Shown: in pieces, positions 2,364 to 21,366 of the stretch | Position numbering within the stretch: position 1 is the first letter of the stretch | How the letters are laid out: each line of letters starts with the position of its first letter | Virus record (IMG/VR): IMGVR_UViG_3300013132_003474 | Location: 1 to 44,755 of that record | Reading direction: 5' to 3' (one strand) | Length of the DNA: 44,755 nucleotides | DNA from: a virus | Notes under the pieces: model-generated | Databases searched by the model: none | What the model saw: only the letters and a program-made list of their open reading frames with translations | Told to the model about the DNA's origin: nothing | Program-made: the position numbers and the translations under genes

Positions 2364-3893
2364 ATGGCCGAGATTACACAAGGCTCACCATTACCTAATA
2401 TCACCACAACGCAGCAGCAAATCACAGCTGCGCCTAACTGGTATACTGACTATCTTAGTAATTTAGCTCAGCAAGGTAAAGACGCAACACAACAAGCACA
2501 GTTTGTTGGCGCATCGCCTTTACAGCAGCAAGCATTTAATCTTACTGGCCAACAAACAGGTGCGTATTCACCTACATTGCAGCAAGCAATTAATTTGGCA
2601 GGTCAAACCGGCATGCCTAGCGCTGTGTCAGCAAGCTCACCGTATTTTCAAGCTGCAACAGGCAGCACTGGACTTGGTGCAGCACAGCCCTATCTTACGG
2701 CGGGTACAGGCACAAGCGGCATGCAAGCTGCATCACCGTATTTTCAAGCAGCAACTGCAGGCACAGGCTTAAACGTTGCGCAGCCTTATCTTACTGCAGG
2801 CACAGGTATAAGCGGCTCACAGGCCGCGTCGCCTTATTTGCAAGCTGCTTCTCAATTAGCACCTAGCAATGTTGCGCAGTATTTAAATCCTTTTACGCAA
2901 TCTGTTGTAAGTGAAATTGGTCGTCTTGGTCAAGAGCAAATTACTCGCAACCTAAGTCCACAAGCCACTGCTGCTGCGGTAGGCTCTGGGCAATTTGGTT
3001 CTCGTCGAGGTGCCGAAATTCTTGGTGAGACAATTAATCGCGCGTTAGAAAATATGCGCGGTCAACAACTTGGTGCTTTGCAAACAGGCTATCAAAATGC
3101 GCTTACGGCTTCGCAAACCGACCTAGCACGTCAGCTGGCAACAGGCCAAACGGCTGGTCAATTAGCTAATCAACAGGCAGCTAATTTACTACAAGCTGCG
3201 CAGCTTTCCGGCGGGCTTAGTCAAGCAGATCTAAATCGACAGCTGGCAACAGGCCAAACTGCAGGTCAATTGACTAATCAGCAAGCGGCTAACTTATTGC
3301 AAGCCGCGCAGCTTTCTGGTGGATTAAATCAAGCAGACTTGGCTCGCCAGTTATCAACAGGCCAAGCTGCAGGTCAAATGGCTGCATCAGACGCAATGCA
3401 AAGATTGCAATCAAGTCAAATGCTAGGCAATTTGGCTCAAGCAGGACAAGGTTTAAATTTAGCTGATATTAATGCATTGTCTACGCTTGGTGCGCAACAG
3501 CAACAAATTGGCTTAGCAGAGCAGCTATTCCCATTACAAGTTGCAGCACAGCAAGCCGGATTGCTTAGAGGCTACACCATTCCTACATCGGTTGCCTCGA
3601 CTTATACGGGACCAATTCCTGGCGCGTACAATGCATCACCCTTGCAACAGATTGCAGGCATTACATCATTGCTTGGTGCATTGACTACGCCACAACAAGG
3701 CAGTAGTACTTCGCCTTTACAAAATATCATTAGTGGTATTGGTGGATTATTTCCTAGCAGTGGTGGTGGTGGTGGCACTACAGCGTACCCTGTAGATGAC
3801 ATTTTTGGCAATATTATCTACGGCCCTGGTGGCAGCTATACAACTAGCGGCGGTTCTGTTATTAATCCATCAGACTATTCTGATTTAGTTTAA
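2364..3893 (+). CDS. Ala/Gln-rich repeat virion protein
   Basis: The ATG at 2364 follows an AAAGG ribosome site overlapping the end of the previous gene. The protein has 509 residues, is rich in Ala, Gln, Gly and Thr, and is built from repeats. One set around residues 90-170 alternates ASPYFQAAT with AQPYLTAGTG. A second set around residues 255-335 repeats QLATGQTAGQL...QQAANLLQAAQLSGGL. Between them lies NPFTQSVVSEIGRLGQEQI followed by GSGQFGSRRGAEIL, a motif I recognise from structural proteins of many aquatic podo- and myoviruses, although no function is proven. The last 60 residues are Gly/Ser-rich. It is most likely a virion or ejected protein; an enzymatic role is not supported. Confidence 0.6.
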   Translation: MAEITQGSPLPNITTTQQQITAAPNWYTDYLSNLAQQGKDATQQAQFVGASPLQQQAFNLTGQQTGAYSPTLQQAINLAGQTGMPSAVSASSPYFQAATGSTGLGAAQPYLTAGTGTSGMQAASPYFQAATAGTGLNVAQPYLTAGTGISGSQAASPYLQAASQLAPSNVAQYLNPFTQSVVSEIGRLGQEQITRNLSPQATAAAVGSGQFGSRRGAEILGETINRALENMRGQQLGALQTGYQNALTASQTDLARQLATGQTAGQLANQQAANLLQAAQLSGGLSQADLNRQLATGQTAGQLTNQQAANLLQAAQLSGGLNQADLARQLSTGQAAGQMAASDAMQRLQSSQMLGNLAQAGQGLNLADINALSTLGAQQQQIGLAEQLFPLQVAAQQAGLLRGYTIPTSVASTYTGPIPGAYNASPLQQIAGITSLLGALTTPQQGSSTSPLQNIISGIGGLFPSSGGGGGTTAYPVDDIFGNIIYGPGGSYTTSGGSVINPSDYSDLV

Positions 3894-3903
3894 GGTATAA
3901 ATC

Positions 3904-5304
3904 ATGGCTGCACTTCCTACTACATTGCCAGCGCCGCCTACAGGTTTAGGTGGCGACGAAGCCGCAAGAAAAGAATATTTTGACGCGTTAGATAAAACAT
4001 TGCAAGCGTTAGAAGCTCGTGCAACTCGTGGGCCTAATCTATTTAAACTGGCAGGTGCGTTTTTAGACCCAGGCCGTACTGGAAGTTTTGGAGAGGCAGT
4101 TGGCAAGGCTGCTATTTCGGCAGGTGAAGACATACAACGTCAAAGCGAAATGGCATTGCCTATTGCGCAGGTTAGAGCGCAGCTTGCAGGACAAAAATAT
4201 CAAGTTGCCAATGAAGCTAAAGCTCTTGATCTTGTATCTAGCGTATTAGGCGCATCACCTGCACAAACAAATCAAGTTATTAGTTCAGGTCAAATGCCAC
4301 CTGATATGGTGAGCAAGATTACACCAGGGTTAGTCATTGCGGTTAATAAACTAGATCCTAAGCTTGGTACATCACTTAAGCAAGTGTTTGATATGGACAT
4401 TGAACGACGTAAGTTGATTGATGCCGATATTAAAAATGGTCTTAGCGTAACAGATTTAATTGCTAAATACGGGTCTGGTGTAGTTGCGTATTTACCTACA
4501 GGTGTAAAATTGCCTGGACAGCAACCGCAAAGGGCACCAGGAGGCCCTGGTACAACTCCAGCAGGCACACCTGCTTCAGGTGTGTCCACAACTACGCAGC
4601 CTGTTGTTGTTACGCCAACCAGTGGTGATGCAGGTTTACCATTAGCGGTACAAGCTAAAATTAAAGAACAACGCGCATTAGATATTGATAAGCAATTTCT
4701 TAACGAACGTATTGCAATTAACGCGTGGACACCGTCGGCGGTTTCTAACAGTGATCGCACGCTTCGTGAGTTGTATACAATTGCTGATAATCGACCAAAT
4801 ATATTTGGTCTTATGATGGAGCAAGGCATATTATCGGCTGCGCAAACAGCTGCACAAGAAGGCATACAAACACCTCGCGGCAGTATAGCACTGCCTGTAC
4901 AAAAAGCATTAGAAAAAGTAAAACTTGTACCTAAAGATCAAGAATTATTACGTCGTGCATCGCAGCTTATGGCTGAACAATTCTTTGAAAATGCCAAAGC
5001 TAATAAGTCTATTTTGGGGCCTCAAATTTCAAATGCAGACGCCCAGTTTATGCAACGTCCTATGGTTACACCAGAAGACTCAGCTGCTAATATTAAGTAT
5101 TGGGTGCAGCAGCATATTCTTATCAACAAGCAAAGAAATGACTTATTTTCATCATTAAATCGTTATGATCGACAGTATGGCGCATCAGTGCCTGCAGGTG
5201 CGTATTTTGACTCGTCTGACTATCGCGGTATCATATCAAAATATGATGCATTAAATCAACAACTTATTGAGCGAAGCCCTTTTTATAGCAATTTAAGAAG
5301 ATAG
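3904..5304 (+). CDS. Hypothetical virion-type protein with Pro/Thr linker
   Basis: The ATG at 3904 has an AAGG site 9 nt upstream. The 466-residue product is mostly predicted helix, with a central low-complexity linker near residues 200-240 rich in Pro, Gly and Thr. That linker separates an N-terminal helical part (about 1-195) from a C-terminal part (about 245-466). I see no catalytic motif. Its place between two repeat-rich genes at the end of a rightward block suggests an internal or ejected virion protein. This is inference from position and composition only. Confidence 0.5.
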   Translation: MAALPTTLPAPPTGLGGDEAARKEYFDALDKTLQALEARATRGPNLFKLAGAFLDPGRTGSFGEAVGKAAISAGEDIQRQSEMALPIAQVRAQLAGQKYQVANEAKALDLVSSVLGASPAQTNQVISSGQMPPDMVSKITPGLVIAVNKLDPKLGTSLKQVFDMDIERRKLIDADIKNGLSVTDLIAKYGSGVVAYLPTGVKLPGQQPQRAPGGPGTTPAGTPASGVSTTTQPVVVTPTSGDAGLPLAVQAKIKEQRALDIDKQFLNERIAINAWTPSAVSNSDRTLRELYTIADNRPNIFGLMMEQGILSAAQTAAQEGIQTPRGSIALPVQKALEKVKLVPKDQELLRRASQLMAEQFFENAKANKSILGPQISNADAQFMQRPMVTPEDSAANIKYWVQQHILINKQRNDLFSSLNRYDRQYGASVPAGAYFDSSDYRGIISKYDALNQQLIERSPFYSNLRR

Positions 5305-5306
5305 CT

Positions 5307-6209
5307 ATGGCTAAAGATAACTTAACCGTAAGACTTGAAGACACAGATCCTATTTTTAGGAATGATAAAAAAGGCGCGCCTAGAGCAAATGAGCTTAGAT
5401 TAGAAGATGTTGACCCTATTTTTAAAGATACACTGCCTGTGCCTTCAAGTACAAGCACGTCAGCGCCACCACCGCCTGCTGAGCTTTCAAATCTACAAAA
5501 CTTGCCTGCGTCTTATCAAATGGCAAGACGTGCCATTTTTGGTGAAAGCCCAATATCACCAGGTGTAGGTGAGTTTGGTGGCGCCATTCTTGGTGGCACC
5601 GCAGGAATGCTTGAGCAAGGTAGAAATATTTTAAATCTTCGTCCAGGCATTAAAGCAATGGGTGAAGCAATAACTGCGCCGCCACCTTCAGCTGCAACAG
5701 GCTCAGCGTATGAGAAATGGCTACGTAACTTTGCAGGCCTTGAGCGAACCGGGCCAGGCGGTGTGCCTGAAGCCGCACAAACTTATCAACGCACTAAAAC
5801 ACATGGTGAAGCCGGTAAAAAAGTATATCAACGCTATGGCAATCAGCCTTTGGATATCAATCGGTATCTTGCAGCAACTGATGAAGCTGATCGTGCAAGA
5901 AAACTTGCTTGGCTTAAACAAGCCGGAGAAAAAACAACCCGGGGTCTTGGCTATGTTCCAGGTTTAAGTGTACTTGCCGGAGGCCTAGGAGGCGCCGATC
6001 TTATTGAGGCCCTTAGACGTTTAGAACGTGGCGAGTATGGAGGGGCAGCAATTAAAGGTATAGGTGGCTTAGGCGCGCTTGCGTCGTTGTTGCCTTTTCC
6101 ACTTACTCGTTTAGGCGGTGGCGCTTTATCACTACTATCAATGCCTGCTGAAGCTTTATATCAAGGTGGTGAACCACCACCCCCATCAGCTGAATACGAA
6201 GCACCTTAG
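5307..6209 (+). CDS. Hypothetical protein with doubled RLEDxDPIF motif, last gene of the rightward block
   Basis: The start is ATG 5307, two bases after the previous stop; the ribosome site is weak. The N-terminus carries the short motif RLEDTDPIF at about residues 10-18 and again as RLEDVDPIF at about 31-39, about 21 residues apart. A Pro-rich linker follows. The C-terminal 100 residues hold Gly-rich hydrophobic stretches (GLSVLAGGLGGADLIEAL; GIGGLGALASLLPFPL) that could insert into or lie on a membrane. Ejection or pore-forming proteins would look like this, but nothing proves it. The gene is followed by an inverted repeat and an intrinsic terminator, so it probably ends the late transcript. 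Confidence 0.5.
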   Translation: MAKDNLTVRLEDTDPIFRNDKKGAPRANELRLEDVDPIFKDTLPVPSSTSTSAPPPPAELSNLQNLPASYQMARRAIFGESPISPGVGEFGGAILGGTAGMLEQGRNILNLRPGIKAMGEAITAPPPSAATGSAYEKWLRNFAGLERTGPGGVPEAAQTYQRTKTHGEAGKKVYQRYGNQPLDINRYLAATDEADRARKLAWLKQAGEKTTRGLGYVPGLSVLAGGLGGADLIEALRRLERGEYGGAAIKGIGGLGALASLLPFPLTRLGGGALSLLSMPAEALYQGGEPPPPSAEYEAP

Positions 6210-6216
6210 TCTCCTC

Positions 6217-6263
6217 CACATTTACACACTTCAGCCAAAAGTAAGTCTCCCAGTGTAAATGTG
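6217..6263. repeat. Perfect 11-bp inverted repeat just before the terminator
   Basis: CACATTTACAC (6217-6227) and GTGTAAATGTG (6253-6263) are exact reverse complements separated by 25 bases. The element begins 7 bases after the last rightward stop codon and ends 4 bases before the terminator stem. It could be a weak stem in the late mRNA 3' end or a protein-binding site; it has no T-tract of its own. Confidence 0.6.
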
Positions 6264-6267
6264 ATTC

Positions 6268-6300
6268 TCCCCGGCTCAATGCCGGGGATTTTTTTATTTT
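6268..6300 (+). terminator. Rho-independent terminator of the rightward late block
   Basis: CCCCGGC (6269-6275) pairs with GCCGGGG (6281-6287) around a 5-base loop TCAAT, with an extra T-A pair, and is followed by ATTTTTTTATTTT. The T-tract lies on the plus strand, so it ends rightward transcription. It also overlaps the stop codon of the convergent minus-strand gene at 6294. Confidence 0.9.
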
Positions 6301-6545
6301 GATAAACCTTTGGACTCAATGAGCGTAATGACTTTAGTTAGTGTATTTTGCTCATCCAAAGTTTTTGCTTCTTTAAGCATCTTACCTATGGCGTGAATAA
6401 CACCTACACGCTCAAACAGTGTTGCGCTGGTAAAAGCTTCAAGCCATATATTGTATGGATCTTCCAATAAAGACATGCTGTTGGTTCTTTGCAGTAGCTC
6501 CAACCAATCATGGTAGCCATTTTTTATTACGTCATTGGGGTTCAT
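6294..6545 (-). CDS. Hypothetical 83-residue protein, end of the leftward block
   Basis: The ATG at 6545 overlaps the stop of the upstream gene (ATGA), so translation is coupled. The sequence is ordinary soluble protein, helix-rich, without Cys clusters or membrane segments, and I do not recognise a family. Its stop codon sits inside the T-tract of the convergent terminator. As the last gene of the leftward replication block it probably shares that transcript. Function unknown. Confidence 0.6.
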   Translation of the reverse strand: MNPNDVIKNGYHDWLELLQRTNSMSLLEDPYNIWLEAFTSATLFERVGVIHAIGKMLKEAKTLDEQNTLTKVITLIESKGLSK

Positions 6546-7222
6546 AGTTTTTTGCCTTCAGTTGATAGCCATGTTCTAAGAGTTGTTAAACCACCGTCAA
6601 TTAAGACGTGACGAGGGTTATCACGATATTTGTTATACACAGCATGTTTAATAAAGTTTTTCATTAATAAGTGTGCATCGGCTTCGATTGGCTTTGCGCC
6701 AATTGCGTAGTCGGTAGACATAAAATGAAAGTCATAGTCAGGAAATTCTTTTTGAATTGATTGCTCTTGGTGTGGTAACAAACCAATTACAGATATCCAT
6801 GGCTTTGCAATACGCCTTACAAACTCCATTTCAGGATTATGTCTTTTAACTTTAAACTCATGCTCAAGCTCATGCACAACTTTTACAACTTCATCTTTTA
6901 CAGTTTGTGCTATGTATTGTGCTATAGTTTGGATTAATGTTTCCAGTGTTGCAGGTTTAATTTCTAAAGCACGACTGTCAGGCTCTATGGCCTGCTCTGC
7001 AACATATGATGCAATCTTATTAAGCTCTTGCTTAACAAGCTTAGGCAAATCACCTAAAACTTGCAGTGTTGCCAAATCACGCTGCCTATCTACAGGCAAT
7101 GCAGTACTTTGCGCGTAACGAAACGCGTCCAACAATTTGTAATTGCTTGTACGCATTAAAGAAGCTGTCTTATCAATTAAGAGAGCGCGTTCTGCAGTTG
7201 TCCAACGAATAACATGCTTCAT
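6542..7222 (-). CDS. Hypothetical 226-residue protein
   Basis: I chose ATG 7222 (MKHVIRW) over an upstream TTG because AAAGGA sits 6-7 bases before it, in the recurrent TATTGAAAGG element. The protein is largely helical. Residues about 60-130 are rich in hydrophobic heptads and Lys/Glu and may form a coiled coil, and the C-terminal 90 residues look globular. No enzyme motif is visible. It lies just downstream of a 51-residue gene and the thymidylate-synthase homologue, but no functional link is shown. Confidence 0.6.
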   Translation of the reverse strand: MKHVIRWTTAERALLIDKTASLMRTSNYKLLDAFRYAQSTALPVDRQRDLATLQVLGDLPKLVKQELNKIASYVAEQAIEPDSRALEIKPATLETLIQTIAQYIAQTVKDEVVKVVHELEHEFKVKRHNPEMEFVRRIAKPWISVIGLLPHQEQSIQKEFPDYDFHFMSTDYAIGAKPIEADAHLLMKNFIKHAVYNKYRDNPRHVLIDGGLTTLRTWLSTEGKKL

Positions 7223-7229
7223 TTTGATT

Positions 7230-7239
7230 CCTTTCAATA
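7230..7239 (-). promoter_or_regulatory. TATTGAAAGG element before the 226-residue gene
   Basis: On the minus strand the 10-mer TATTGAAAGG is followed by AATCAAA and ATG 7222. Its AAAGGA part is a Shine-Dalgarno site; the conserved TATTG part is not explained by ribosome binding. A GTTACT box lies about 9 bases further upstream. Confidence 0.6.
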
Positions 7240-7256
7240 ATCAAAGTAACAAGTGA

Positions 7257-7412
7257 CTATTTCTTTTCAATAGCTTGTTGGTATTGTACTACCGTGGCCA
7301 ACTCCACTTTTATTGCTTGCAAAGCGGTCATAACATCTTGCATTGACCAACCTTTACGTAGCAATTCTATCACAGTTTCACGTAACTTTTTTTCTATATG
7401 TTCATTAACCAT
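7257..7412 (-). CDS. Small helical protein, 51 residues
   Basis: This ORF starts MVNEHIEKKLRETV and ends QQAIEKK with TAG at 7257. It overlaps the end of the thymidylate-synthase homologue by 19 bp, starting in a different frame at ATG 7412. It fills a stretch that would otherwise be a gap in a very compact operon. The composition is amphipathic and charged, with one long predicted helix and a GWSMQDVMTALQ segment that could be a small helix-turn. The ribosome site is weak. A small regulatory or binding protein is possible; function is unknown. Confidence 0.55.
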   Translation of the reverse strand: MVNEHIEKKLRETVIELLRKGWSMQDVMTALQAIKVELATVVQYQQAIEKK

Positions 7413-8179
7413 TTGCCAAACGCCATGTTAGGGTTGATAGTCTTGTTTGATAATAGCAATGCCTCTTCATGCTCAATTTTAGGCGCAGGGTCAGATATCT
7501 GCGTAAGAGTATGCGCTATAATAATGTTATTAAACATATCCATACGTGATTCATATACATGGAATGACCCTACCGCCACTGTAAGTGTGCCCATAGGTAC
7601 TTTTAATCTTGCTGCCACAATCTCTTGCAAGAAACTGAATGTAGGTAAATCATTGGTCATGCCCCATAGTATGTCTTGACTGCGCATAATGGCGCGGGCA
7701 TTTAATGCCCCATGGCGAATTCTAAATTCTATGGCTATGGTGCAAGGTACATCCTTGGCTTCAAGATCCATATGATCTATGTCAGTACCGTACATAGGAA
7801 TCACAGCTCGTCTGCTCATAGGATCCTGTTGCAAAATGGCTACGATGTTCTCCACGCCATAGCGACCAAACCAATAGGAACCATAATTGCTATTCAGTTT
7901 GCCATTGGCTATGATCTTTCCCCATTGACTGGCATGCTCAGCAATTGATAAGTCTGTAGGGTCGGCTTTAATGTACCAAGCCATTTCACGCTTAAGATAC
8001 TTTAAATTGAAATTACGCCCAGCAAAATTGTTGTATCTAATATAAGGTTGGCATACGTAGGAAAAGTTTTCAATTTCCAAAGTACGTTCACCGCGAGGCT
8101 GTACCCAGTGGCCTGCAACTTTTAATACCGCATAGAGTTTATAAAGATCTTCAGGTAAATTAATGTGTATGGTTTCCAT
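7394..8179 (-). CDS. Thymidylate-synthase-family pyrimidine (hydroxy)methyltransferase, probable dCMP hydroxymethylase
   Basis: The 261-residue product has a full ThyA fold. The true start is ATG 8179; longer in-frame extensions lie inside the upstream gene. Visible ThyA features are the folate-site Glu65 (REMAWYI), the phosphate-binding SRR at 122-124, the catalytic Cys146 (VPC), the R166-S167 dump site, and H207 and Y209. From Cys146 to Tyr209 the alignment to E. coli ThyA needs no gap. At position 177, where thymidylate synthase has the Asn that reads the uracil ring, this protein has Asp (MTND). T4 dCMP hydroxymethylase has Asp at this place, and the same change makes Lactobacillus thymidylate synthase act on dCMP. 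I therefore expect dCMP as substrate, giving 5-hydroxymethyl- or 5-methyl-dCMP. The next two genes in the operon, a kinase and a glycosyltransferase-like protein, fit this. Confidence 0.75.
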   Translation of the reverse strand: METIHINLPEDLYKLYAVLKVAGHWVQPRGERTLEIENFSYVCQPYIRYNNFAGRNFNLKYLKREMAWYIKADPTDLSIAEHASQWGKIIANGKLNSNYGSYWFGRYGVENIVAILQQDPMSRRAVIPMYGTDIDHMDLEAKDVPCTIAIEFRIRHGALNARAIMRSQDILWGMTNDLPTFSFLQEIVAARLKVPMGTLTVAVGSFHVYESRMDMFNNIIIAHTLTQISDPAPKIEHEEALLLSNKTINPNMAFGKWLMNI

Positions 8180-9098
8180 AGTCAGATTCCGTAATTGTGT
8201 AAGGCTGTTCAGGGTAGTTTTGCATATGATATAACGGTGGAGGAAGTTTGATTGCCTGCACATTATTGTTTAACGCCCATGTATAGGCGTTGTTGCCAAG
8301 GGCAAAGATTTTGCTAGGCTTTAACTGATTAATAAAGTCGGGCGTTGTGGCAACACCTAAATATGATTGCGTGTTAATCCAGTAAATTTGTGATTCACGT
8401 ACGCCTTCATGTTGCAATGTCTCGGCCAACATACGGCTGGGTCCGTCATTATCCAAAAAGTTAATGAATGGCACTACAACGGCTGAGGCGCGTACATTTG
8501 TGCGTGGGCCTTTATCACAAAGCATTAAGATGTTGCCTTCTTTAAAACAGCCACCGCCTGAGGCTTTGTTTTCGATTGATAAAACTTTAACCTTTTCCAT
8601 CAGACTGTCCACGTCATCATTCTCATAATCATAGTGCACGACAGGAATGGCAGTACCTTGACCTAATGTGTCATACTCATCATACACCTTACGTAACTGC
8701 TGCACAGTATCGAGGTACTCTTTATCTACGCGTGATGAGAATGCTTTGGCGCATACTTCAAACGCCGGTTGGCAATGCACTACAACGGCGCCTCGTGATA
8801 ATGCTGCCCTTTCCAACATACGAAGTCTAGGCGTATCAACACGATTTGCGCCATTACGATACACAGCGCCATAGATTGGTTCTGATAACCAGGCACGATC
8901 CAGTATGACATGATCATCATAGGTTAAGGCTTGGCTCATTGATCTAAAGTAAATCCTGCAGATATCCTCGGACGATAGACCATTGTATGGACCATGCTTA
9001 ACAACATGAGTCATACGATCATTTTGAAACTCTTGCCGTAAAGTCTCAGCCAACGTAGTTTTACCTGCGCCATCTGGACCTTCTAAGATCAAGATCAT
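8160..9098 (-). CDS. Deoxynucleotide-kinase-like P-loop domain fused to a UDG-like domain
   Basis: The ATG at 9098 overlaps the upstream stop (ATGA). Residues 1-170 form a thymidylate-kinase-like P-loop domain: Walker A GPDGAGKT at 7-14, and LDRAWLSEPIYG at 66-77, which matches the DR motif of dNMP kinases. Residues about 189-296 resemble the uracil-DNA-glycosylase superfamily: a first strand NILMLCDKG, GPSRMLAETL, the strand YWINTQ, then LKPSKIFALGNNAYTWAL at about 259-275, and a late His291. Canonical UDG catalytic motifs are degenerate, so glycosylase activity is uncertain. Between a dCMP-hydroxymethylase-like gene (20-bp overlap) and a glycosyltransferase-like gene, the kinase could phosphorylate hydroxymethyl-dCMP, the job of T4 gp1. 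A plain dTMP kinase is the alternative. Confidence 0.65.
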   Translation of the reverse strand: MILILEGPDGAGKTTLAETLRQEFQNDRMTHVVKHGPYNGLSSEDICRIYFRSMSQALTYDDHVILDRAWLSEPIYGAVYRNGANRVDTPRLRMLERAALSRGAVVVHCQPAFEVCAKAFSSRVDKEYLDTVQQLRKVYDEYDTLGQGTAIPVVHYDYENDDVDSLMEKVKVLSIENKASGGGCFKEGNILMLCDKGPRTNVRASAVVVPFINFLDNDGPSRMLAETLQHEGVRESQIYWINTQSYLGVATTPDFINQLKPSKIFALGNNAYTWALNNNVQAIKLPPPLYHMQNYPEQPYTITESDYGNHTH

Positions 9099-9994
9099 TT
9101 AAGTAGAACCTTTAATGTTTGTAGTGTATTTTTTTCAGTTGCAATGGCTGAAAATAACTTCTCTGCTTGCAGAGTTGCTATGGCTTGCAAAGCGTCGTCA
9201 TCCATTTGCTCAATTTCTTGCAATGTATAGCCATAAGACTTATGAATCATGCTGAGTTCTTCTGGGCTGCCGCCAAGGATACAACCTGCATGGGCACTGT
9301 GTAAGTATCTAACACGCCACCATCCGCATCCGGCATGAGCATATGTTGGACAAAGCACGCCTTTGTATCCTCCGTACTGCCATACAATGTCACTCTCCAA
9401 CAATCTTGGTTGCCCAAGCTTTTTTCCACCAATACTATGAACGGGCCAACTGAGATGCTGTGATTCAGCCCAAAGGTGTGCTGTGGTTGAGAGGCTTGCG
9501 TTGTACCATTCATGTTTTCTGTTTGTCCATGGCAGTTTATGCGTTACAGGCAGATCATACAAAGGGGACGGGTCCCAACAGAGTATCTCCTCAATATCTT
9601 TTAAGCCCATCTTTTTAGAATCACCCCAAGGAAAAAGAGGCGCAAGCCATAAGCGATTAACCAGATCACGTATGTCAATGGCCTCTTGCCAAGTTGGCAA
9701 TATCTCTTGAAATGACCAATCATCAAGGCAAATAACTGCGTCGAGGCGTTTTTCTAACGTGTAAACAGCGCCTTCACTGTTCATAGCATTATGATCCAGT
9801 GGATAGACATACACGAAAACTTTATCGTAATGCGATAGATTTTCACCAGGTTTAACAGCACGGTGCTCAATCTCACAATCTAACATGCCAAAACCTTTAC
9901 GCATCAATTCAGGTATTGATGCAAATTTGGTTGTTGCGGCGCGTTTAGGGTGATTGACGTGTGTTTCGGTGACGCCCGTAATAAGAATATGCAT
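9095..9994 (-). CDS. Glycosyltransferase-like protein (GT-B type pattern)
   Basis: The start is ATG 9994 with GAGG about 11 bases upstream. The N-terminus reads as a Rossmann-type strand (MHILITGVTETH) and the first half contains further strand-helix units ending in FVYVYPLDHN and LDAVICLDDW. The C-terminal half carries CGWWRVRYLHSAHAGCILGG followed by SPEEL and a long terminal helix, which resembles the donor-site half of GT-B glycosyltransferases. No close match to T4 alpha- or beta-glucosyltransferase is evident by eye. Its stop overlaps the kinase-fusion start, so the two are co-translated. In this context it could add sugar to hydroxymethylated DNA; another sugar-transfer role, or an unrelated Rossmann enzyme, cannot be excluded. 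Confidence 0.45.
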   Translation of the reverse strand: MHILITGVTETHVNHPKRAATTKFASIPELMRKGFGMLDCEIEHRAVKPGENLSHYDKVFVYVYPLDHNAMNSEGAVYTLEKRLDAVICLDDWSFQEILPTWQEAIDIRDLVNRLWLAPLFPWGDSKKMGLKDIEEILCWDPSPLYDLPVTHKLPWTNRKHEWYNASLSTTAHLWAESQHLSWPVHSIGGKKLGQPRLLESDIVWQYGGYKGVLCPTYAHAGCGWWRVRYLHSAHAGCILGGSPEELSMIHKSYGYTLQEIEQMDDDALQAIATLQAEKLFSAIATEKNTLQTLKVLLK

Positions 9995-9999
9995 ACTGC

Positions 10000-10224
10000 T
10001 TATGCCTCGCTGACCTCGATTAAGTTTGCTGCAATATCATAGTGTATGTCACCGGTACGACCGCCGGCGTCAACGTATTCACCAACCGTCATACCGTCTT
10101 TGTACAATTCAAATCGTTGGTACGCAAGGCTGCCTTTACGCTTTGGATTGCCATCACAAAGCAGTGTAATAACGGCTGTTTTCTTAAAACGCTTGCGCGC
10201 AGTTGTTTGCTGCTCAGCAGACAT
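10000..10224 (-). CDS. Hypothetical 74-residue protein
   Basis: I place the start at ATG 10224 (MSAEQQ) because CTAAGGAG lies 7 bases upstream; a TTG at 10290 in the same frame is inside the upstream leader. The N-terminus is basic (ARKRFKK). The rest looks like a small beta-rich domain (FELYKDGMTVGEYVDAGG). I do not recognise it with certainty, although small basic proteins like this are common in phage replication blocks. It lies 5 bases before the glycosyltransferase-like gene and probably shares its transcript. Confidence 0.6.
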   Translation of the reverse strand: MSAEQQTTARKRFKKTAVITLLCDGNPKRKGSLAYQRFELYKDGMTVGEYVDAGGRTGDIHYDIAANLIEVSEA

Positions 10225-10241
10225 AAAGTTGCTCCTTAGTT

Positions 10242-10292
10242 TTAATGTGTTAAGAGTGAGTATTGCAAAGTTGACATGTATGCCTTTCAAAT
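10242..10292 (-). promoter_or_regulatory. TTTGAAAGG element with an 11-codon leader ORF
   Basis: The minus strand reads TTTGAAAGG (10283-10291) and then, after 5 bases, ATG at 10277. This opens an 11-codon frame (MSTLQYSLLTH) ending with TAA at 10242. The following gene starts separately at 10224 with its own Shine-Dalgarno site. It may be a translated leader or only an upstream recurrent element; expression is not shown. Confidence 0.35.
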
Positions 10293-12585: not shown

Positions 12586-12806
12586 TTACATGTATCCAAG
12601 AACTCATTTAGTTTATCATGTAGCCAAAGACGATTAGCCTCGCCTGTTGTGATTGCAGGATCCATCATCGACGGGCGTTGATCTTTTATCCATTCTTTAA
12701 AGTCAGCTCCTAACCTGATTTGAAATGTACCTTGTTTAGCATTGGCTAAAACTGTTGTGCCTAGACCATTAAAAGACGCCCCTGTTGTTAAGTCTGCGTA
12801 GTTCAT
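12582..12806 (-). CDS. Hypothetical 74-residue protein between polymerase and nuclease
   Basis: Both ends overlap their neighbours as ATGA: the start at 12806 overlaps the DNA polymerase stop, and the stop overlaps the nuclease start. The N-terminal 25 residues are Gly/Thr-rich and the C-terminus (EANRLWLHDKLNEFLD) is a probable helix. I do not recognise the family. Tight coupling on both sides suggests a fixed stoichiometry with the replication proteins and perhaps an accessory role. Confidence 0.65.
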   Translation of the reverse strand: MNYADLTTGASFNGLGTTVLANAKQGTFQIRLGADFKEWIKDQRPSMMDPAITTGEANRLWLHDKLNEFLDTCK

Positions 12807-14617
12807 TTTGTTTCCTGATAAGAATTGCCAACTTTATAATCAGAGACCATGGGTACATCCATTTTACATGCATTGCACATGGCATGCATAAGACAATTAG
12901 CCTCACGTTCAATGTGCTCTTTAGGCGCGGAAATAACCAATTCATCATGCACGCTTAATAATAGTCTACTATCTTGCCTTGTCTTTTGATACAGCAACAT
13001 TGCAGCTTTGGCCTGATCGGCAGCTGAGCCTTGAATTAACAAGTTAACGCCTTTATAGTCAAACTCACGTAATTGACCATTAATAACCTTAGGAGGCTCC
13101 ATCTTGACTAAGCGACTGCCTAGAGTTTTAATAGGTTGATTAAGCTTGTACCGCTGACGCATCGTAGCTTGCATTGACTTAAGTCCTGGTGCCACGGCCG
13201 ATGTGTAGGCATCCATCAATGTTTTGGCCAAGTTGTAATCAATCTCTAACATTTCACTAATCTTTTTAGGCCCAGCGCCGTATAGGATTGCAAATGATAC
13301 GCCTTTTGAATATGTACGACTTACCTCGCGGCCGCTGGCTTTGGTCATCATCTCAGCTGCGTAGGTATGCAAATCAGCTCGAGCATCTTGTTGATACTGC
13401 TGCATTAGGTTGCCACCTTCAAAGTGAGCAAAGATACGTAATTCTTGTGCGTTAAAATCACATGCCACAAGTTTATGGCCTTCATCAGGCAAAATAAAGC
13501 TACGAATTAATGGCAACGGAGCAACATTTAAATCTTTTGGCAATTCAACCTTAGGGTATCGGATAGGCGCATTTTGAAAATTTGGTGTTGATGAAAGTCG
13601 TCCTGTACGGGTACCGCCACGCTCACCTCGTACACTGTTCCAGTTGGTGTAGATTCGACCTGTAGATGCTGAAGCCTGTAACCAAGGCTCAATAAAAGTT
13701 GATAAGCAAGTTGATAAGTTGGCTCGATATCTGAGTACATCTTTTAACTCTTTGTTGATTAGCATTTCATCCAAAGCTTCTTTGGTGGCTTGCATTTGGC
13801 CTTTATCCGTGGTAGGCCAAATTTTATTTTTATCCCAATGCTCGGATTGATAAATACTCTCGACAAGCTGTTGATCGCTGTCGACATTCAATTCAGGAGA
13901 CTTTAACAATGAACGGACCCAAACAGTACTGGCTTCAATATCTTTTTCTGCTTGTTCTTTTGCTTGCTGTAGACCTTGTTGGTCAACGCGTACGCCAAGC
14001 CGAGAATTTTCAAGCAACATTGGGATTAGCTCTAACTCACGGTAGTACGGCTCTTGCTGTGCAGGCAGAACTTTATCATGTAAAAAAGTAAAAAGCTTGT
14101 AAGTTAGTCTTACATCAGCCATGGCGTATCGGCCAACTAAATTAACCGGGCCTTTTGATATGTGAGCGCCCCAGGTAGATTTTTTACGCTTTGCCTCGGG
14201 CACGTTATTAATAATCCATTCACGGAGCTCATCTCTTTCACTAGGCTCGGCCAAGCCCCATGTTACAACCAATTCTTTTAATGCCAGTGATTGTACATGT
14301 GGATCATGTAAGAAAGCAAGTATGAGTGTATCATGAATAAGCTCAGGCCTTGGCACTGATAGATTGAAATAAGTCTCAATCACATCAAGATCAAACATTG
14401 CATTATGAAATAGCAACGGTCGACCCGAGTTGTAAGCCCATGTTAAATATGACTTAACTATGTCAAAGGCGCAATTATTGCCTACAACATGTCCAAAGGC
14501 GTAGTAGTTACAAGCATCGGTTAACGGATCATACACAGCTAAGCCGACTGGCTCAGGCGGATACTTGGGTCGCGACTCAATGCCAAAAGTTTCAAAGTCT
14601 AATACAATAGGTTGCAT
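12803..14617 (-). CDS. Family A DNA polymerase with 3'-5' exonuclease domain
   Basis: The protein has 604 residues and is T7-like in size. The exonuclease domain is intact: DFETFG (D7, E9), HNAMFD (N72, D76) and YAMAD (Y164, D168). Polymerase motif A is DFNAQELR (D387), motif B is RTYSKGVSFAILYG (R434, K438, F442, Y446) and motif C is VHDEL (H557, D558). The residue matching E. coli Phe762 and T7 Tyr526 is Phe442, so discrimination against dideoxynucleotides is expected. There is no 5'-3' nuclease domain. It should be the replicative polymerase, working with the primase-helicase at 21782-23899 and the nucleases downstream. The start ATG 14617 gives a complete first exonuclease strand. Confidence 0.95.
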   Translation of the reverse strand: MQPIVLDFETFGIESRPKYPPEPVGLAVYDPLTDACNYYAFGHVVGNNCAFDIVKSYLTWAYNSGRPLLFHNAMFDLDVIETYFNLSVPRPELIHDTLILAFLHDPHVQSLALKELVVTWGLAEPSERDELREWIINNVPEAKRKKSTWGAHISKGPVNLVGRYAMADVRLTYKLFTFLHDKVLPAQQEPYYRELELIPMLLENSRLGVRVDQQGLQQAKEQAEKDIEASTVWVRSLLKSPELNVDSDQQLVESIYQSEHWDKNKIWPTTDKGQMQATKEALDEMLINKELKDVLRYRANLSTCLSTFIEPWLQASASTGRIYTNWNSVRGERGGTRTGRLSSTPNFQNAPIRYPKVELPKDLNVAPLPLIRSFILPDEGHKLVACDFNAQELRIFAHFEGGNLMQQYQQDARADLHTYAAEMMTKASGREVSRTYSKGVSFAILYGAGPKKISEMLEIDYNLAKTLMDAYTSAVAPGLKSMQATMRQRYKLNQPIKTLGSRLVKMEPPKVINGQLREFDYKGVNLLIQGSAADQAKAAMLLYQKTRQDSRLLLSVHDELVISAPKEHIEREANCLMHAMCNACKMDVPMVSDYKVGNSYQETK

Positions 14618-14623
14618 AGCTAC

Positions 14624-14935
14624 TTAAAAAAGAAGTTTATATTTTGGAGCGCAGGTAACGTCAATCACAACATCAGTTGTGTAGTTATTAACTCTTCGTT
14701 TGCCGTAGACCATTACGGCACGAGCACCATTGCCTTCACATTCCTGAATTGCAGTAATAACTTCATTACGGCTTAAAGGGCGCACATGTGGATCAACATC
14801 CAAAGCGCTGTTAGGCTCAGGAATACGACCTGTGTACATTGGCGGAAAAGGCGGTGTTTGATTAATTGATTTGTATTCTGGCTGCGCGCAACCAACTACA
14901 AGTATTGACATACATAAAGCTAATTTTGCGTTCAT
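14624..14935 (-). CDS. Small predicted lipoprotein
   Basis: The start is ATG 14935 with GGAG 7 bases upstream; a longer TTG start at 14947 would spoil the signal peptide. The N-terminus MNAKLALCMSILVVGCAQ is a classic lipoprotein signal: a basic start, a hydrophobic core and the lipobox VVGC with Cys16 as the lipidation site. The mature part has about 87 residues, with two more Cys (QEC, VTC) that could form a disulfide. It would be anchored in a host membrane facing the periplasm. Location between replication genes suggests superinfection exclusion or another host-membrane effect rather than lysis, but that is inference. Confidence 0.7.
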   Translation of the reverse strand: MNAKLALCMSILVVGCAQPEYKSINQTPPFPPMYTGRIPEPNSALDVDPHVRPLSRNEVITAIQECEGNGARAVMVYGKRRVNNYTTDVVIDVTCAPKYKLLF

Positions 14936-15031
14936 ATTTAGCTCCAAGTGGGGGCTACGGGCAGAGTGTGTACAACAACCGAGATCTCACCTTGATCTTA
15001 ATTGTTCTCCACCCTCGCCCCCAAGCTTATT

Positions 15032-15812: not shown

Positions 15813-16178
15813 TTACTTGCGACGAACGCTGAGCTCCCAGACCGAAGTAATCTCGGTACCAGGAATTTGCTCGCCCGATTCCCAGCGCTCACGGAATGCG
15901 GTCGAGGATAAACGCTTGTGAAGAAGTTCGAATTCACCTGTCTTTGCAACATGATCATAGAAGGCCGGCCAATCAATGATGGCTGGGTGTTTAGCTTCAC
16001 GCATTGTGCAGCTAGCCTTTTCAGACGATGCTTGCGTGAGGCCTGCAGTTGACATTTGTTCCATGATGTCGGCTTCGATCTTGGCCAGGTCTTCATTGCA
16101 CTTTTTAATTTGTTCATTTAAGCTTTCCTTTAAAGCTTTGACTTCAACAAATTGGTCGATAAGATCTTTAATGTTCAT
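15813..16178 (-). CDS. Conserved phage protein with N-terminal coiled coil
   Basis: The ATG at 16178 overlaps the stop of the MazG-like gene (ATGA). Residues 10-45 form a strong coiled-coil pattern rich in Glu and Lys. The C-terminal half (DWPAFYDHVAKTGEFELLHK, then FRERWESGEQIPG and VWELSVRRK) reads as a small globular domain. I have seen this architecture next to SSB-like genes in many phages without a known function. It could bind DNA or the SSB-like protein encoded 25 bases downstream. Confidence 0.65.
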   Translation of the reverse strand: MNIKDLIDQFVEVKALKESLNEQIKKCNEDLAKIEADIMEQMSTAGLTQASSEKASCTMREAKHPAIIDWPAFYDHVAKTGEFELLHKRLSSTAFRERWESGEQIPGTEITSVWELSVRRK

Positions 16179-16573
16179 ACCATTGCTCCATGTGCTCTTA
16201 GTAACCGTTCAATCTCGGGCTCGGGGTTTTGCCAGCCAACAGGCTTTACGACATCATACTGTTGACCGCGTAAAGACCGTACTCGATCATTAGCAGGTTC
16301 TTTTTGCATATTGGCCTCGTGCACAATGTCAAATAGTTGGTTGAAAGGCAACCCCATGGCGTGTGCCATGCCAAGAGTAACATAGACAAGATCGGCAAGG
16401 GCGTCGGACGCGTCCACTATGCTATCTTCCTCAACGCCGCGAAGGTACTCGCTAAGCTCCTCCATAATGAAGCGTGCAAAGTAGCTGGTTTGCTCCGGTG
16501 AAAGTAACCGAGGCCTATCACCTATTGGCAAAGCCATTTTTTGTCTAAACTCTTTTACTTGGTCATACATCAT
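16175..16573 (-). CDS. MazG-like all-alpha NTP pyrophosphohydrolase
   Basis: The 132-residue product has the metal-binding pattern of MazG-type nucleotide pyrophosphohydrolases: MEELSEY (E38, E39, E42) in one helix and DASDALADLVYV (D54, D57, D61) in the next. The start ATG 16573 overlaps the stop of a small membrane-protein gene. Enzymes of this superfamily hydrolyse (d)NTPs to monophosphates and PPi; T4 dCTPase gp56 also belongs to it. With a probable dCMP hydroxymethylase in the same block, removal of unmodified dCTP is an attractive role, but a general house-cleaning or signalling-nucleotide role is equally compatible with the sequence. Confidence 0.75.
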   Translation of the reverse strand: MMYDQVKEFRQKMALPIGDRPRLLSPEQTSYFARFIMEELSEYLRGVEEDSIVDASDALADLVYVTLGMAHAMGLPFNQLFDIVHEANMQKEPANDRVRSLRGQQYDVVKPVGWQNPEPEIERLLRAHGAMV

Positions 16574-18263: not shown

Positions 18264-18363
18264 TTCAAAAAAGTTAGTTAGTAACAAGAAACGTGCTGTA
18301 CTACAATTGCAATTTTAATGGTTCTCGGGACTTTGTGTAGGCAAAATGGGACTTTTTTCATAT

Positions 18364-18398
18364 TTTCGTGTTATTTTTACATCGTGAAATATAGCACG
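18364..18398 (-). promoter_or_regulatory. 35-bp repeat with promoter-like core, copy A
   Basis: This 35-base sequence is identical to 21332-21366. On the minus strand it begins CGTGCTATATTTCACG, in which TGCTATATT is an extended -10 and CGTG...CACG is an inverted repeat. It lies in the 163-bp gap upstream of the DUF932 gene. Binding of a regulator plus host RNA polymerase is the likely purpose. The rest of the gap (18264-18363) shows nothing else clear. Confidence 0.6.
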
Positions 18399-21331: not shown

Positions 21332-21366
21332 TTTCGTGTTATTTTTACATCGTGAAATATAGCACG
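21332..21366 (-). promoter_or_regulatory. 35-bp repeat with promoter-like core, copy B
   Basis: Identical to 18364-18398. The adjacent 21285-21310 stretch is a diverged version: both read CGTGTTA, a spacer, then an A/T core and TATAGCACG on the plus strand. Two tandem units therefore stand before the leftward early genes. They could be two promoters, or a promoter with an operator. Confidence 0.6.

Follow-up and report, generated by a model that had tools for sequence, protein, structure and literature searches.

A probable T4-like cytosine hydroxymethylation and glycosylation cassette in an uncultured phage record, with a sequence-unrelated glycosyltransferase

The window is the whole stretch of DNA analysed, a virus record of 44,755 bases classed linear (IMG/VR, IMGVR_UViG_3300013132_003474). 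Its minus strand carries genes encoding a thymidylate synthase (TS) homologue, a thymidylate kinase (TMK)-like protein, a glycosyltransferase (GT) and a MazG-type nucleoside triphosphate (NTP) pyrophosphohydrolase. Cytosine hydroxymethylation followed by glycosylation, in a pathway like that of phage T4, is the best explanation for this cassette and a probable one. The evidence consists of homology, active-site residues, fold, gene order and co-occurrence in relatives.

Gene order and gene boundaries

All four open reading frames (ORFs) were confirmed at the positions given in the initial annotation. The features are listed with the evidence on which each was assigned.

7394..8179, minus strand: dCMP hydroxymethylase-like protein of the TS superfamily, 261 aa (PF00303, PDB matches, active-site residues).
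8160-9098, minus strand: kinase gene, 312 aa (TMK-like N-terminal part and probable C-terminal part like uracil-DNA glycosylase, UDG).
8547..9098, minus strand: N-terminal part of the kinase, residues about 1-184, P-loop TMK-like domain (PHROG_761, AF2, VIA).
8160..8546, minus strand: C-terminal part of the kinase, residues about 185-312, probable UDG-like domain (weak PF03167).
9095..9994, minus strand: GT-B glycosyltransferase, 299 aa, proposed DNA 5-hydroxymethylcytosine (hmC) glycosyltransferase (AF2 fold, Foldseek, VIA, invariant residues).
16175..16573, minus strand: PRA-PH/MazG-type NTP pyrophosphohydrolase, 132 aa, proposed dCTPase (PF01503, relatives in AXL3 and Xp15).
10000..10290, minus strand: conserved protein, 96 aa, just upstream of the GT gene in the window and in most clade loci; uncertain member of the cassette. 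No Pfam or PHROG match was found for it.

The GT and kinase genes overlap by 4 nt (9095-9098). The synthase ORF is open over 7394-8263; in its relatives the first residue corresponds to window Met29, and an ATG is present there, at 8179. The likely start is therefore 8179 and not 8263, which leaves an overlap of 20 nt with the kinase gene. The initial annotation described three consecutive overlapping genes at 7394-9994: their order and overlaps stand, and the synthase start is moved. The GT-kinase-synthase trio is intact and in the same order in 64 distinct related contigs; the clade gene order, HEL-g96-GT-kinase-synthase, is constant and represents one lineage. The MazG gene, said to belong to the same block, also lies on the minus strand, some 6 kb upstream of the trio, with replication genes in between. 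Because of this distance, the cassette is a trio with a nearby fourth gene and not a set of four adjacent genes.

The enzymes of the cassette

The synthase matches PF00303 (E 2e-18) and the PHROG thymidylate synthase family (E 1.5e-34). Its best PDB sequence matches are MilA CMP 5-hydroxymethylase (5e-17) and T4 dCMP hydroxymethylase (5.8e-13), and all thymidylate synthases rank below. When aligned with E. coli TS (N177/H147), it has Asp177 for Asn and Thr147 for His, and it retains the catalytic Cys (E. coli C146), the folate Asp169 and Gly173. T4 gp42 is the same at all these positions; D177/T147 is also found in the Xp15 and AXL3 synthases. The D/D/T pattern was read in 61 of the 64 distinct clade synthases; motif search could not fully read the remaining three. 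In MetaGPA, positions 177 and 147 of TS separate modified-cytosine contigs from others, and PRA-PH (PF01503) co-occurs with the TS-D177 synthase in the former (PMC8670742). The protein is thus a probable dCMP hydroxymethylase, as first annotated, and its product is predicted from these residues to be hydroxymethylated. The cytosine-type residues at 177 and 147 led to the rejection of a canonical TS or a dUMP hydroxymethylase. The view that the synthase is no close homologue of its T4 counterpart holds for the sequence as a whole (26% identity to gp42) and not for the active site, which is gp42-like. The closest annotated synthases (36-37% identity) are those of Acinetobacter MD-2021a and Xanthomonas Xp15, with carbamoyltransferases beside them.

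The GT has no sequence match among Pfam, NCBIfam or PDB profiles and matches only the unnamed phrog_14998 in PHROG (E 1.6e-15). With no named sequence family to draw on, the GT is identified by its fold and by its distant relatives. The fold was obtained from an AF2 model only, built with 34 relatives (pLDDT 91, pTM 0.88). In Foldseek and VIA searches of this model, the best class is T4 BGT (Z 18.2, 284 residues, rmsd 3.6-3.7, 9-10% identity), followed in VIA by SenB (Z 17.0) and T4 AGT (16.3); VIA Z differences below 1 are ties, and BGT exceeds SenB by 1.2. The protein is accordingly kept as glycosyltransferase-like: the structure search against GT-B folds placed a transferase nearest, and not a non-transferase fold. 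Residues invariant across the family include D92, E200, WWRxR 225-229 and E246; D92 could correspond to BGT D100 as catalytic base. The modelled resemblance to BGT appears to be at the level of fold, and the sugar added need not be glucose.

The kinase matches PHROG_761, thymidylate kinase (E 2.4e-20). Its AF2 model (pLDDT 89) has a TMK fold in residues 1-184, with a VIA Z of 15.3 to Aquifex TMK over 167 residues, and the sequence carries a P-loop (GPDGAGKTT) and a DR motif (DRAWLSEP). The earlier description as deoxynucleotide-kinase-like is borne out, with the addition of a probable UDG-like domain that is absent in the T4 kinase; a role as hm-dCMP kinase would fit. For the C-terminal part, PF03167 (UDG) is the sole family common to several kinase tails (5 of 13; best E 0.0058, below the 24.3-bit gathering cut-off), and the window tail matches it weakly (E 0.061). 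The GE(D/x)FG and HPQ motifs (cf. UDG GEAPG and HPS) are kept in AXL3-type tails and lost in the window clade. The UDG assignment stays weak, because querying PDB profiles with the C-terminal domain returned no UDG and the result list of a structure search with the fused model was taken up by the kinase part. The tail is probably a UDG-like domain whose motifs are degenerate in the window clade.

The MazG-type enzyme matches PF01503 (PRA-PH, E 6.3e-16), in agreement with its initial placement in the superfamily of T4 dCTPase. It is homologous to the enzymes of the AXL3 and Xp15 cassettes (stretches of 41% and 34% identity, respectively), and each of the 11 clade records tested encodes it. From its sequence, it is proposed to be a dCTPase.

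Distant relatives, known systems and the sugar donor

The wider GT family includes 16 distant records, which constitute a test independent of the window lineage. A PF00303 protein is encoded in 14 of them, and all 14 hold a D177/T147 copy; Aeromonas phage ZHF and Erwinia phage FBB1 encode an additional, canonical N177/H147 synthase. The records that lack a PF00303 protein are a 14-kb fragment and cyanophage C48C1. For a crude base rate, the window synthase has some match in 1837 of 50,697 phage records (about 3.6%). MazG or dUTPase_2-type genes adjoin the GT gene or lie near it in several distant lineages (soil, actinophage). In record L192, GT, MazG, fused kinase, synthase and dCMP deaminase lie inside about 5 kb. 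In L123, a contig of a Bacteroidetes metagenome-assembled genome (MAG), the 4 kb at 4150-8087 encode a synthase, a dCMP deaminase, a ferredoxin-like protein, a GT and a UDP-galactopyranose mutase; it may be the most compact self-contained form of the pathway. A search of bacterial genomes with the A2 profile gave one confirmed locus. No dCMP deaminase was found in the window or its clade.

A diverged second GT copy is found beside the first in actinophage-type relatives (L111:7062-8045, L021:10148-11137, L113:6968-7939, L097:7190-8176). It may add a second sugar.

The window cassette resembles the T4 system (gp42, gp56, gp1, beta-gt, alpha-gt) in its gp42-type active site, in a GT-B enzyme nearest to BGT in fold and in the presence of the NTP pyrophosphohydrolase and dNMP kinase steps. 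Unlike T4, it has a TMK-like kinase fused to a probable UDG-like domain, a GT without BGT sequence similarity and without PF09198, a MazG of the PRA-PH type, and genes that form one overlapping block. The block of Stenotrophomonas phage AXL3 and Pseudoxanthomonas phage PW916 (MazG-kinase-TS-deaminase) shares with the window the fused kinase, the D177/T147 synthase and MazG, but has no window-type GT; a dCMP deaminase and a methyltransferase gene are found instead. Of 37 restriction enzymes, only two, the AT-only TasI and Tru1I, cut AXL3 DNA (PMC7504290). Because AXL3 lacks a window-type GT, this supports base modification by the core of the cassette and not the sugar. A recurrent block of MazG, fused kinase, cytosine-type synthase and dCMP deaminase, mostly without a window-type GT and thus of the AXL3 type, was observed in L018 and L182-L197.

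In Xp15 and MD-2021a, compared here together with the 5hmC carbamoyltransferase pathway of MetaGPA, the synthases are the closest to that of the window, PRA-PH lies beside the Xp15 synthase and decoration is at the hydroxymethyl group. The last enzyme is, in contrast, a carbamoyltransferase, of a family that acts on 5hmC in vitro (PMC8670742). No carbamoyltransferase (PF02543) was found in the window and six clade records; the Xp15 control was positive. RB69/Mosigvirus and Shewanella phage Thanatos likewise combine a TS homologue, a kinase or dCTPase and glycosylated cytosine. They differ from the window in that RB69p048 lacks Asp169/Gly173, sugar-nucleotide genes are phage-encoded and the modification is a pentose (PMC13390438, PMC12838424).

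A UDP-galactopyranose mutase gene (PF03275) directly adjoins the GT gene in seven branches (DSL-LC01 group, FBB1, ZHF, C48C1, L115, L113, L123). This association in several lineages suggests UDP-galactofuranose (UDP-Galf) as donor for the GT family. The midpoint-rooted GT tree has mutase-linked members on either side of its root, and the label requires at least four changes; the association is therefore either ancestral with losses or repeated. No mutase was found in the window and six clade records, and the window host may supply UDP-Galf or another UDP-sugar. It is possible, if rather doubtful, that the family consists of new DNA galactofuranosyltransferases which give 5-(galactofuranosyloxy)methyl-dC in phage DNA, the window phage taking host-made UDP-Galf. 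A literature search for phage DNA galactofuranose, or for the mutase with hydroxymethylcytosine, returned nothing relevant. If UDP-Galf is the donor, the product would be a DNA sugar absent from the literature searched and the GT a new enzyme for labelling hmC.

Several other features of the window were noted. The protein encoded at 16674-17207 matches PHROG_624 (E 6e-52) and has weak similarity to PF03013 (pyrimidine-dimer glycosylase). Its relatives include one in Xp15 and one annotated as pyrimidine dimer DNA glycosylase in DSL-LC01, each alongside a cytosine-type synthase. A perfect 35-nt repeat, TTTCGTGTTATTTTTACATCGTGAAATATAGCACG, occurs twice (18364-18398 and 21332-21366), each copy immediately upstream of a block of minus-strand genes; the first precedes a DUF932 gene at 18268. 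This repeat could possibly be a promoter or regulator site for the cassette's operon. Many clade relatives have at least one additional gene inserted between DNA polymerase A and the Cas4-like exonuclease; in the window (12586-15000), a 74-aa gene alone separates them. Tail-region genes hold tandem repeats at 1261-1385 (perfect 56-nt repeat, 69-nt spacing) and 3114-3329 (108-nt repeat, 78% identity).

Alternative explanations, proposed pathway and significance

Some observations weigh against the proposed pathway. The virus is known from a metagenomic record alone, of linear class and possibly incomplete, and gene linkage inside the window clade may be a product of shared descent. The PF01503 match places the MazG-type enzyme in its superfamily only and does not give dCTP specificity. 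No sequence similarity between the GT and T4 BGT was detected (hhalign probability 2%), nor any match to PF09198, the T4 BGT family, in the window or relatives (T4 control 1e-99); for these reasons the GT is not filed as a BGT family member. Non-DNA glycosyltransferases fit the model nearly as well (SenB Z 17.0), cyanophage C48C1 has the GT and the mutase without a PF00303 protein, and a window-type GT was found in 1 of 14 AXL3-type genomes tested, AXL3 itself being without one.

The last three points bear on an unlikely alternative, in which synthase and kinase modify cytosine and the GT decorates something else (virion protein, host surface). GT-B folds are common, with SenB, TarM and other non-DNA enzymes reaching Z 15-17, and AXL3-type cassettes dispense with a window-type GT. 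This explanation is opposed by the D177/T147 synthase in 14/16 GT-family records, by the position of the GT gene (near synthase, kinase and MazG in L192, directly beside synthase-kinase in the window clade) and by a nearest fold that is a DNA glucosyltransferase.

A little less probable still is a kinase whose substrate is a hydroxymethylated base within DNA, flipped out by the UDG-like part, as for the 5hmU-DNA kinases of thymine hypermodification. The fusion is indeed kept in AXL3-type and window-type phages; yet the kinase domain resembles TMK and has the nucleoside monophosphate kinase motif DR(S/C/A)W, such a kinase and the GT would contend for the hydroxymethyl group, and the UDG motifs are degenerate in the window clade.

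Synthesis of 5-hydroxy-dCMP, as in the RB69/Mosigvirus route, with a sugar put directly on the C5 oxygen, is very improbable. RB69-type phages do combine a TS homologue, a TMK-like kinase and a GT (PMC13390438), and the window kinase profile picks up the RB69 kinase (probability 94). RB69p048, presumed from position and annotation to be the 5-hydroxy-dCMP synthase of PMC13390438, carries Asn169 and Val173 (folate Asp169 lost), whereas the window synthase has Asp169/Gly173 like T4 gp42, which at the level of residues would argue for hydroxymethylation. Equally improbable is a dCMP methylase giving plain 5-methylcytosine among genes of ordinary nucleotide metabolism: Asn177Asp is cited in PMC8670742 as shifting TS towards dCMP methylation, and methylase and hydroxymethylase are not separable by sequence alone, but 5-methylcytosine offers no hydroxyl to the associated GT, and the nearest synthase relatives (36-37%) adjoin carbamoyltransferases whose family has been shown to require 5hmC (PMC8670742).

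In the preferred pathway, hydroxymethylation then glycosylation, the MazG-type enzyme would deplete dCTP, giving dCMP, which the TS homologue would hydroxymethylate with methylene-tetrahydrofolate. The TMK-like kinase would phosphorylate hm-dCMP towards hm-dCTP, the phage family-A polymerase would incorporate the latter into DNA, and the GT-B enzyme would then glycosylate the hydroxymethyl group in DNA, blocking restriction enzymes. The donor would be a host UDP-sugar: UDP-galactofuranose according to the GT relatives or UDP-glucose by T4 precedent. The substrate of each enzyme, the order of the steps, DNA as acceptor and the identity of the sugar are proposed; modified DNA in the window virus itself is, like its sugar, predicted from genes and models. 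A credible enzyme was found for each of the four T4-type steps of cytosine replacement claimed initially: D177/T147 synthase, TMK-like kinase, BGT-like fold and PRA-PH.

What is probably new here is a T4-like pathway with a sequence-unrelated transferase family, a fused kinase and possibly a new sugar. Sugar shielding of cytosine as in T4 would be extended to a large clade of uncultured aquatic phages. One uncharacterised GT family is common to that clade, actinophages, Straboviridae, a cyanophage and a phage-like Bacteroidetes MAG contig. Its cultured members (Aeromonas phages 25, phiAS4 and ZHF, Erwinia phage FBB1, and Gordonia phages Sixama, GMA2 and GodonK) are open to direct testing. A common core of dCTPase-like enzyme, kinase and hydroxymethylase would be combined with interchangeable decorators: the window GT, the carbamoyltransferase or a putative other decorator in AXL3.

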